Assembly (NCBI GenBank): GCA_001880285.1
Contig: CP016269.1
Span: forward strand, 620,001-684,000
Source of the DNA: Flavobacteriaceae bacterium UJ101
GTDB taxonomy: Bacteria; Bacteroidota; Bacteroidia; Flavobacteriales; UJ101
Direction of reading: 5' to 3'
Length of the DNA stretch: 64,000 nt
The notes under the pieces are model-generated. The model ran no database searches. It saw nothing but the letters and a program-made list of their open reading frames with translations, and had not been told where the DNA came from. The position numbers and the translations under genes were made by a program. Below are positions 33,381-36,458 of this stretch, piece after piece (the first letter of the stretch is position 1; each line of letters starts with the position of its first letter).

Positions 33381-34673
33381 TTATGAATTCATTAATTCTT
33401 CTATTTCTTCCACTTCTTCTGGAATATCACGCATTAAATTAAAAGGTTCTCCTGAATTTTTCACAACATAATCATCTTCAATACGAATTCCCATATTTTC
33501 TTCAGGAATATAAATTCCAGGCTCAATAGTAAAAACCATATTTTCTTTAAAAGGCATTCTTAAATCACCATAATCGTGTGTATCTAATCCCATGTGATGG
33601 GAAGTTCCATGCATAAAATATTTTTTATATGCTGGCCAATCTGGATTTTCATTTTGAACATCTGCTTTATCTAACAAACCTAATCCTAATAACTCAGAAG
33701 TCATCATTTTACCTACTTCAACATGATAATCGTACCAATTATTTCCTACAGTTAAAATTTTAGCAGCTTCATGTTTCACATGTAAGACTGCATTATACAC
33801 TGCTTTTTGTCTTTCTGTAAATTTTCCTGATACAGGGACCGTTCGTGTCATATCAGAAGAATAATTCGCATATTCTGCTCCTACATCCATTAAAATTAAA
33901 TCTCCCGCTTTACATTCTTGATTATTTTCAATATAGTGAAGTACACAAGCGTTATACCCACTACCAATAATTGGTGTATAAGCAAATCCTTTTGATCGAT
34001 TTCGTAGAAATTCATGTGCAAACTCTGCTTCAATTTCATACTCCATTACACCTGGTTTTATAAAACCAAGCACTCTTCTAAAACCTTTATTTGTAATATC
34101 ACATGCATGTTGAATCAAATCAATTTCCTGTTGTTCTTTAATTCCTCTTATCTTTTGTAAGATAGGATTACTTCGTTGAATTTCATGCAAAGGATACTGA
34201 GCTTTAAATTTTTTAATAAATCGATCTTCTCTTGTTTCTACTTCACTTGAAGCCCGGTAGTGTTCATTAATATTAAAATAGATGCTAGAAGCCTCTCTCA
34301 TCAATCCATACATCACTTTATCAAAATCCTCTAACCAGTATACTGTTTTAATACCTGAGGTTTCATATGCTTTTTCTTTCGTTAATTTTTCACCTTCCCA
34401 AATAGCAATATGTTCATTTGTTTCTCTTAAAAACAGTATTTCACGATGTTTTTCATCTATAGAATCTGGGAATAATACTAAAATTGATTCTTCCTGATCA
34501 ACCCCTGATAAATAAAAAATATCACGGTGTTGTTCAAAAGGTAATGTACTATCAGCACTTACAGGATAAATATCATTTGAATTAAAAATAGCGATTGACT
34601 TTTCTTTTAATTCTTTGATAAATTTAGCTCTATTTTGCACAAATAATGAGCTATCTATTGGTGCGTATTTCAT
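33381..34673 (-). CDS. pepP: Xaa-Pro aminopeptidase (M24B, aminopeptidase P)
   Basis: This cytoplasmic metallopeptidase removes N-terminal residues before proline. The 430-residue protein has an N-terminal creatinase-like domain (YLSGVDQEESILVL) and a C-terminal pita-bread domain. The metal ligands are visible: the two aspartates in LMDVGAEYANYSSDMTRT, the histidine in HGTSHHMGLDTHD, and the two glutamates in TIEPGIY and IRIEDDYVV. It is monocistronic with a terminator downstream and the sRNA-like array upstream. Confidence 0.93.
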   Translation of the reverse strand: MKYAPIDSSLFVQNRAKFIKELKEKSIAIFNSNDIYPVSADSTLPFEQHRDIFYLSGVDQEESILVLFPDSIDEKHREILFLRETNEHIAIWEGEKLTKEKAYETSGIKTVYWLEDFDKVMYGLMREASSIYFNINEHYRASSEVETREDRFIKKFKAQYPLHEIQRSNPILQKIRGIKEQQEIDLIQHACDITNKGFRRVLGFIKPGVMEYEIEAEFAHEFLRNRSKGFAYTPIIGSGYNACVLHYIENNQECKAGDLILMDVGAEYANYSSDMTRTVPVSGKFTERQKAVYNAVLHVKHEAAKILTVGNNWYDYHVEVGKMMTSELLGLGLLDKADVQNENPDWPAYKKYFMHGTSHHMGLDTHDYGDLRMPFKENMVFTIEPGIYIPEENMGIRIEDDYVVKNSGEPFNLMRDIPEEVEEIEELMNS

Positions 34674-34762
34674 TTTATGTTTTTTTGATATTAATAATTC
34701 ATTAAAGATAGAAAATATAGTCTAAAAAAAACATTAGAAAACTAGAAAAAAGTCACAAAAAA

Positions 34763-34841
34763 ACTCCGCGAGTGAGAATCACGGAGTAAAAACCTAATAA
34801 ACTTAATAATGAAAAAAAGTTATTTTTCTATAATAGAACTT
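34763..34841 (-). ncRNA. Small RNA candidate, array unit A
   Basis: On the minus strand a -7-like box CAAATTTG (34847-34854, one mismatch) is followed by GAAGTTCTATTATAG, CTTTTTTTCAT, TTATTAGG and a hairpin with ACTCCG/CGGAGT arms (34763-34768 and 34782-34787), then TTTTTTT. It is the most diverged of four tandem units with the same order of elements and the same predicted length of about 80 nt. No protein-coding frame of note is present. Confidence 0.45.
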
Positions 34842-34958
34842 CACTTCAAATTTGCGTCATTTATTACATAAAAATATAATAGTTTCGATGTATCAACTTA
34901 TTGTATCGACCAAATATCCAAATTTTACTATGAATTGTAAATTTTAATTACACCAAAA

Positions 34959-35041
34959 ACTCCGTAAACAATTAAATGTTTACGGAGTAAAACCTAACTA
35001 ATTTAAACCATGAAAAAGTTACCTTACTGTTGTATAACTTC
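34959..35041 (-). ncRNA. Small RNA candidate, array unit B
   Basis: The minus strand has the -7 box TAGGTTTG at 35046-35053, then GAAGTTATACAACAG, GGTAACTTTTTCATGG, AATTAGTTAGG and a perfect 12-bp hairpin (arms 34959-34970 and 34977-34988) followed by TTTTTGG. The predicted transcript is about 83 nt. No TTTG is found at the -33 position. Confidence 0.5.
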
Positions 35042-35143
35042 ATATCAAACCTAATCATTTTAACTTGTTCTATTACATATTATTAGACGAACATCAAATT
35101 AGCTTCGATAAAAATCAACTTAAAAACTTTATCGTAAAAAAAA

Positions 35144-35226
35144 TCTCCGCAAGAAAACCTGCGGAGAAACCCTAACTAATCTAAACTATGAAAAAGCTAC
35201 CTTATATAGAACTTTTATGCTAAATT
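35144..35226 (-). ncRNA. Small RNA candidate, array unit C
   Basis: The minus strand has the -7 box TAGGTTTG at 35231-35238, then AAAGTTCTATATAAGG, TAGCTTTTTCATAG, GATTAGTTAGGG and a perfect 8-bp hairpin (TCTCCGCA/TGCGGAGA, 35144-35167) followed by eight Ts. This is the best terminator of the four units. The predicted transcript is about 80 nt. Confidence 0.5.
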
Positions 35227-35312
35227 AAAACAAACCTATTTCATATACAATCCACTTCGTTGTTTTTAACTGTTTTTAACACATTTTTATACATAATTAT
35301 ATATAAAACAAA

Positions 35313-35389
35313 CTCCGCAAGCATAAATATGCTTACGGAGAAAAACTCTAACTAACTTAAACCATGAAAAGCTATACCTACATAGCCTT
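35313..35389 (-). ncRNA. Small RNA candidate, array unit D
   Basis: The unit has a full promoter, a body with GTAGGTATAGCTTTTCATGG and GTTAGTTAGAG, and a 13-position hairpin with one mismatch (CTCCG and AAGCATA arms, 35313-35340). On the minus strand the hairpin is followed by TTTGTTTT. The predicted transcript of about 77 nt matches the other units in length. Confidence 0.55.
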
Positions 35390-35394
35390 TGAAG

Positions 35395-35427
35395 CAAAGA
35401 TATAACATAATTATGTAATAAAACAAA
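35395..35427 (-). promoter_or_regulatory. Promoter of array unit D
   Basis: On the minus strand TTTG at 35424-35427, a 21-base spacer and TATCTTTG at 35395-35402 give a complete Bacteroidota promoter. It points into the array, with no protein gene before pepP, 720 bases further on. Confidence 0.7.
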
Positions 35428-35519
35428 ATTTTACATGTTTTTTTAATAAAAAAAACACACTAAATTATAGTTCTTTTGAATAAAATTCTAAAAATATTGG
35501 TTTTGTGCTTAGCAGATTT

Positions 35520-36458
35520 CTAATCATTAAAATCTCTGATTGACTTCATTAATTCTTTACCACCATTTGTAATACAAGTTTCTCCTGCTTCTATTCCAAA
35601 AGACTTGTAATTCTTTACATCTGATTTTAAATCTAGTCGATTACATATTTTTCCATCTAATGAATATAAGCTGGTGGTTAAATCAACTATATTATTTCTT
35701 ACGGTAGCTTTTGCACCAATTGGAGCAGTACATCCTCCTTCTAACTTTTTTAGGAAATCTCTTTCAACAGTAGCTTCTATTTCAGAAGTAGGATTATTTA
35801 TTTTTTGACAAGCTTCAAAAAGCTCTTTATTTTCTTCTAGACACGTTACGGTTACAATACCTTGAGCAGGTGCTGAGATCATCCAATCTAATGTTCGATA
35901 ATTCAATCCCATCTCTGGTAATTTTTCTAATAAATGAATTCTTTCTAAACCTGCTTTTGCAAAAACAGCTCCTTTCCAATTACTAGCCTGCAATTTTTTA
36001 AGTCTAGAATTCACATTCCCTCTTAGATTTTCAATGGTATAATTTGGAAATTTATTAAGCCAAGCTGCTTTTCTTCTTAGACTACTCGTCGCTATAGTTC
36101 CTTTTGACTCATAATCTTTTAAAAAATCATCATTTCCTTTATAAACAATTATATCTTCATAGCTACCTCTTTCTAAAAAAGCTCCATAAACAGTTCCTTT
36201 CGGTAAAGCAGTTGGCACATCTTTAAGAGAATGAACTGCTATATCAATTCTTTTTTCTAATAAAGCTATATCTAAAACTTTTGTAAAAACACCGGTAATT
36301 CCCATTTCATATAAAGGTTTAGTCAACTCTTTATCTCCCTGAGATTTTACAGCTACTATTTGGGTTAGATATCCTAAATTTTCTAGTTTTTTCTGTACTG
36401 TTTCTGCTTGCCACATAGCCAATTGGCTATCACGGGTTCCTATTCGTATTGTTTGCAT
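35520..36458 (-). CDS. hemC: Hydroxymethylbilane synthase (porphobilinogen deaminase)
   Basis: This haem-pathway enzyme joins four porphobilinogens into hydroxymethylbilane. The 312-residue protein shows IGTRDSQLAMWQA, HSLKDVPT, TSSLRRKAAW, LRGNVNSRL, APAQGIVTV and the dipyrromethane cofactor cysteine in EGGCTAPIGA near residue 240. It follows hemA by two bases and is cotranscribed with it. The remaining haem genes are outside the window. Confidence 0.96.
   Translation of the reverse strand: MQTIRIGTRDSQLAMWQAETVQKKLENLGYLTQIVAVKSQGDKELTKPLYEMGITGVFTKVLDIALLEKRIDIAVHSLKDVPTALPKGTVYGAFLERGSYEDIIVYKGNDDFLKDYESKGTIATSSLRRKAAWLNKFPNYTIENLRGNVNSRLKKLQASNWKGAVFAKAGLERIHLLEKLPEMGLNYRTLDWMISAPAQGIVTVTCLEENKELFEACQKINNPTSEIEATVERDFLKKLEGGCTAPIGAKATVRNNIVDLTTSLYSLDGKICNRLDLKSDVKNYKSFGIEAGETCITNGGKELMKSIRDFND

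Follow-up and report, generated by a model that had tools for sequence, protein, structure and literature searches.

What occupies the 846-bp gap (34674-35519) between hemC and pepP in Flavobacteriaceae bacterium UJ101, and what might several copies of one sequence be doing there? Coordinates without a contig prefix refer to the window, the 64,000-nucleotide stretch of DNA that was analysed. The flanking genes, hemC (35520-36458, minus strand; porphobilinogen deaminase in Pfam) and pepP (33381-34673, minus strand; AMP_N/Peptidase_M24), enclose a gap with no listed ORF of 40 or more amino acids. As the first-pass annotation had it, four diverged copies of one unit (U1-U4) lie here on the minus strand, at the positions given there. 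Each unit reads, on that strand, as a TAnnTTTG-like box, a 5' segment with short stem potential, a body, a strong hairpin and a run of T's:

35395..35402, minus strand: U1 promoter -7 box TATCTTTG, 6/6 to TAnnTTTG, with TTTG 21 nt upstream
35305..35390, minus strand: U1 sRNA gene, predicted transcript about 85 nt, with 5' stem, seed and terminator (69.8 bits, z -5.0)
35348..35371, minus strand: U1 seed CTTTTCATGGTTTAAGTTAGTTAG, start-region antisense (alignment and sequence)
35313..35340, minus strand: U1 terminator hairpin, then TTTGTTTT (sequence and fold)
35231..35238, minus strand: U2 promoter -7 box TAGGTTTG, 6/6; alternative TAATTTAG at 35220-35227
35136..35214, minus strand: U2 predicted sRNA gene, the unit with a sub-threshold Rfam FopS match (83.2 bits, fold)
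35171..35196, minus strand: U2 seed CTTTTTCATAGTTTAGATTAGTTAGG (alignment and sequence)
35144..35167, minus strand: U2 terminator hairpin, then a T run (sequence and fold)
35046..35053, minus strand: U3 promoter -7 box TAGGTTTG, 6/6
34952..35042, minus strand: U3 predicted sRNA gene, 5' stem GAAGUUA/UAACUUU (79.9 bits, fold)
34993..35018, minus strand: U3 seed CTTTTTCATGGTTTAAATTAGTTAGG (alignment and sequence)
34959..34988, minus strand: U3 terminator hairpin (sequence and fold)
34847..34854, minus strand: U4 promoter box CAAATTTG, five of six fixed positions
34756..34842, minus strand: U4 predicted sRNA gene, most diverged of the array (65.8 bits, fold)
34793..34819, minus strand: U4 seed CTTTTTTTCATTATTAAGTTTATTAGG (sequence)
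34763..34787, minus strand: U4 terminator hairpin, then T's (sequence and fold)

The boxes sit where they had been reported, three of them perfect and one at 5/6. T-rich tracts follow all four hairpins, that of U1 as TTTGTTTT, and not three of the four as first described. The conserved body described earlier likewise needs adjustment: whilst CTTTTTCAT(A/G)GTTTAAATTAGTTAGG is common to the array, AAGTTCTAT is confined to U2 and U4. Against a covariance model of the family the four units score 65.8-83.2 bits (E 1e-9 to 1e-13 per genome), values that are partly circular in that all four were among the nine model-building sequences, which is not true of six other copies found. Given these scores and E-values, the array is not chance. 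Fold z-scores are -5.0 for U1 and -4.1, -4.1 and -2.7 for the other three units.

Seen beyond the window, the array represents four of about 15 copies genome-wide. When the plus-strand motif was run as a pattern against the UJ101 genome (one contig of 3.07 Mb), further intergenic units came up, for a total of nine once U4 is counted. From these nine copies we built a covariance model, a step that the first-pass annotation had proposed for the four units; the model finds paralogues across the genome, 13 of them strong (E<=2e-5) and two fair (E about 0.003-0.004). Six of these 15 were absent from the training set. No ORF of at least 70 amino acids overlaps any copy, whether among the eleven outside the window or the four inside it. 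Two copies form a second tandem at C1:879622-879866, and all the remaining copies outside the array are single. The earlier proposal of four paralogous sRNAs is thus the best reading of these predicted genes, by virtue of their boxes, terminators, covariation and intergenic paralogues elsewhere, and from sequence and structure it is very likely that the copies make up a family of sRNAs.

Two observations concern the surroundings of individual copies. A palindrome, TTTTGAATTTCAAAA, lies upstream of three of them (C1:879731, C1:879889 and C1:2787809), and the UJ101 genome has just seven occurrences of its core, TTGAATTTCAAAA; the palindrome is possibly a regulator site, an alternative-sigma site or the trace of a recent duplication. 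The copy at C1:2787849-2787970 lies just upstream of a same-strand gene whose own start, ATAAATCATGAAAAAGTTAT, resembles the seed complement, and this is possibly a local target or origin.

The direction of transcription is indicated by signals at both ends of the unit. Perfect TAnnTTTG boxes, beginning 32-51 nt before the seed TTTTCAT, are found in 9/15 copies compared with 3.5% of random stretches, although these counts are not independent trials since the copies are paralogues. No perfect -7 box is present in the other six copies, and few of the 15 show a -33 TTG element. Only on the minus strand is the hairpin followed by a T tract. Perfect boxes are also present in relatives from other genomes (L125, L127 and L180).

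Stem sequences had been noted to differ whilst pairing is kept, and the hairpin arms do co-vary strongly. In an alignment of nine sequences, 86% of pair cells are standard and changes on both sides are present at 8/13 pairs, a number reached in none of 500 shuffles. When looser relatives are included (19 sequences), both-side changes are seen at 13/13 pairs; pairing in the terminator stem reaches 94%, each of its nine pairs shows double changes, and the covariation score is 0.67 compared with 0.21 when shuffled and no more than 0.13 when the partner is slid by one to three columns. Because this larger alignment was fitted to the structure, we regard the nine-sequence count as the cleaner of the two. 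Pairing is weaker in the 5' stem (77-83%).

The body CUUUUUCAU(A/G)GUUUAAAUUAGUUAGG has as its plus-strand counterpart CCTAACTAATTTAAACT-ATG-AAAAAG, an ordinary translation start region to which the body is antisense. Its best-conserved segment, UUUUUCAU(A/G)GUU, is antisense to the start codon and Lys-Lys codons, and UUAGUUAGG to positions of about -17 to -9 within that region; in U4 and C1:2355497 the seed has diverged around CAU. The segment TTAGTTAGG, which the first-pass annotation had tentatively picked out as the acting part, does lie within this seed but is too narrow, being only part of the anti-start segment. Initiation in F. johnsoniae is tuned by A residues at -3, -6, -12 and -13 and by low structure between -20 and +20 (PMC6847099); by analogy, the seed would cover an initiation-tuning zone of this type. 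A looser version of the seed pattern, run against public genome contigs, mostly retrieved the antisense of real signal-peptide gene starts. Many of these matches (L095-L132) are Bacteroidota signal-peptide genes with a common leader, CCTAACTAA..AACYATGAAAAA, which suggests a common start-region motif.

Might the information instead lie on the other strand, or the repeat be no gene at all? The plus strand does offer what looks like an ordinary start region, CCTAACTAA..ATGAAAAAG, together with mini-ORFs of the MKK type such as MKKLPYCCITSYQT and MKKLPYIELLC, as would be expected if it encoded short leader peptides (ATGAAAAA...) preceded by a hairpin. We nevertheless regard this as highly improbable and disfavour it: neither length nor sequence of the mini-ORFs is conserved outside the seed, the copy at C1:2355497 has no ATG, and the promoter boxes and T tracts sit on the minus strand. 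Scarcely more credible is a dispersed palindromic mobile element of the REP/BIME kind with no functional RNA genes, for whilst the copies are multiple, intergenic and equipped with a hairpin, it is the hairpin that has diverged most (yet stays paired) and the body that is most conserved, and promoter boxes recur upstream of the copies.

Which mRNAs might such a seed meet? Predicted pairing was compared between signal-peptide genes, assigned by a crude rule, and other genes, with gene starts taken as the first ATG, in two samples of 20 stretches (0.4 Mb each) plus the window. Among 333 sampled genes the predicted pairing of the seeds is stronger at signal-peptide starts than at other starts (means of -14.0 and -12.3 kcal/mol; p=1.3e-5). 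The preference repeats more weakly in 326 held-out genes (p=0.016), where 22/75 signal-peptide genes reach -16 kcal/mol or lower compared with 40/251 others, and in neither gene set did any set of dinucleotide-shuffled seeds give p<0.2. The preference is modest and comes largely from ATGAAAAA, itself enriched in signal-peptide starts; upstream, in-register matches of at least 11/16 are slightly enriched in these starts (9% vs 3%). The best extended match is to the gene at C1:901973, encoding a porin-like beta-barrel outer membrane protein (OMP_b-brl_2), where the perfect 16-nt complement TTAAACTATGAAAAAG spans the start and 16 contiguous complementary bases give a predicted -22 kcal/mol or so. 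It is the one gene start genome-wide with such a match, the chance expectation being roughly estimated at 0.06, which is not very improbable. PorP/SprF, at C1:1889215, is another candidate target among the outer-membrane and exported proteins. For 28 TonB plug genes the predicted pairing has a mean of -13.5 kcal/mol, with 6/28 at -16 or lower; TonB/SusC starts are thus predicted to pair no better than other signal-peptide genes, and SusC-type targeting is disfavoured.

In Rfam, no family fits the units, either at the gathering threshold or at E<=10, and from these searches the UJ101 family is not catalogued there. The scan had been proposed together with a tentative mention of Flavo-1, a motif that like the array is found in Flavobacteria; the window has no match to it at threshold and the array none to E=10. 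Elsewhere in the window, Rfam recognises an L19-Flavobacteria ribosomal protein leader (RF03130; 28457-28484, minus strand, 47.5 bits).

The closest known system is FopS (RF04319) of the Bacteroidaceae, with 12-15 paralogues per genome, a 71-nt model, sigma-ABfr promoters and an intrinsic terminator (PMC11697453). Its single-stranded R1 seed, UUUUUCAUgGU, pairs across the start codon of the leading gene in polysaccharide-utilisation operons; FopS-10 blocks translation, and the RRM protein RbpB antagonises FopS (PMC11697453). Like FopS, the UJ101 family is multicopy (13 strong and two fair copies compared with 12-15), has sigma-ABfr-type boxes (perfect in 9/15 copies) and in most copies carries CUUUUUCAU(A/G)GU followed by a terminator, U4 and C1:2355497 deviating. 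It differs in the body that follows the seed (UUUAAAUUAGUUAGG), in having four copies in tandem and a 5' stem-loop, and in seeds that show no predicted TonB/SusC preference. The best FopS match, at 35200-35133 in U2, scores 26.8 bits against a cut-off of 56, and no other copy and no looser relative matches RF04319 at threshold. No RbpB-type RRM_1 domain (PF00076) was found in the UJ101 genome, which is 99.95% complete, whilst an RRM_1 protein is present in 66 of 148 sampled genomes of the same order. With a sub-threshold score, no RRM protein and no SusC preference, we class the UJ101 family as FopS-like in working and not as a member of FopS.

GibS of Bacteroides thetaiotaomicron also pairs across start codons, through a 5' single-stranded seed, R1, that it has in common with FopS (PMC7366714). 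The UJ101 seed is similarly antisense to the start codon region, but GibS is about 145 nt long with a second seed, R2 (PMC7366714), compared with about 85-95 nt predicted for the UJ101 RNAs. The Rfp sRNAs of F. psychrophilum are, like the UJ101 units, intergenic and from a flavobacterium; Rfp18 is strongly structured and pairs with metalloprotease mRNAs through its third stem-loop, and the part of the report drawn on here describes no multicopy anti-start family among them (PMC9723704).

Strict homologues did not turn up in about 670 other genomes sampled at the level of order or class, a sample without other species of UJ101's family and searched with strict filters that may miss weak matches. 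Nor did the strict seed pattern match public genome contigs or viral contigs, or blastn match phages and plasmids. An order-wide search with query R1 (296 genomes) gave weak matches in nine other genomes: L086, L088 and L091 seem to be homologous coding sequence and L087, L089, L092 and L094 chance, leaving L090 and L093, which from their sequences look like genuine relatives. A class-wide search with query R2 (395 genomes) gave three weak relatives, L178-L180, one of which, L179, is possibly the 3' end of a protein-coding gene. Looser relatives, with seed and terminator, are scattered, occurring singly or, in a Cryomorphaceae-like genome, three in tandem. This tandem (L093/L191; G177 contig C44 at 2852, 3291 and 3591) has near-identical AGTAGTAGAGTTTTTCATAGTTAAGC...ATCCCGG hairpins.

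Two further readings grant the sRNAs and differ on their action or their ancestry. Rather than masking starts, the RNAs could activate or stabilise targets, bind coding regions or sponge proteins or RNAs, the likeness to a start being a by-product of low complexity. Operon activation by GibS is known (PMC7366714), protease mRNA levels in F. psychrophilum need Rfp18 (PMC9723704), and the target signal of the seeds is modest. Yet the seed is the most conserved part of the unit and stays in register with start regions, including A-3 and A-13 of the F. johnsoniae tuning positions (PMC6847099), and we consider this action unlikely, if worth keeping in mind. Slightly better placed, though still doubtful, is that the copies are distant FopS members by descent and not look-alikes, which would be compatible with start masking. 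The genome's best RF04319 score (E 0.086 per genome) falls on U2, the order of parts is alike and 15 copies compare with 12-15 in Bacteroides; against this, the U2 score is far under the gathering score, the other copies are not among the RF04319 matches, the common string UUUUUCAURGU is expected of any anti-start seed, and the RRM protein is missing.

We return to start masking as the reading we favour: the array probably comprises four tandem members of a family of some 15 trans-acting anti-start sRNAs that block translation of exported proteins, with targets that are predicted. From its own sigma-ABfr-type promoter, each array unit would be read on the minus strand as far as its own intrinsic terminator, giving an RNA of about 85-95 nt in which a single-stranded seed lies between a short stem-loop at the 5' end and the terminator hairpin. 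Being antisense to about -17 to +12, the seed would base-pair with mRNAs for exported or outer-membrane proteins over the start codon and the initial lysine codons and so block initiation, the many copies providing dose and redundancy. The analysis itself shows the anatomy of the units, their paralogy and covariation, their antisense relation to a start region and a statistical preference for the starts of signal-peptide genes. Expression, the identity of the targets and the direction of regulation are what we infer here; that the family probably switches off translation of exported proteins follows from its shared sequence being the antisense of their typical start signal. More tentatively, this may be a lineage-specific, RbpB-independent family in which some 15 near-redundant RNAs act as a general brake on envelope and secreted protein synthesis.

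To our knowledge, Bacteroidota have neither Shine-Dalgarno sites nor classical sRNA chaperones, and descriptions of FopS are, as far as we know, confined to Bacteroidaceae. If another order has a second multicopy anti-start family, seemingly separate from FopS, this would suggest that start-region masking is recurrent in the phylum. If the UJ101 family acts in this way, Kozak-like masking of the start region could work without RbpB, and the predicted targets make its proposed action directly testable.
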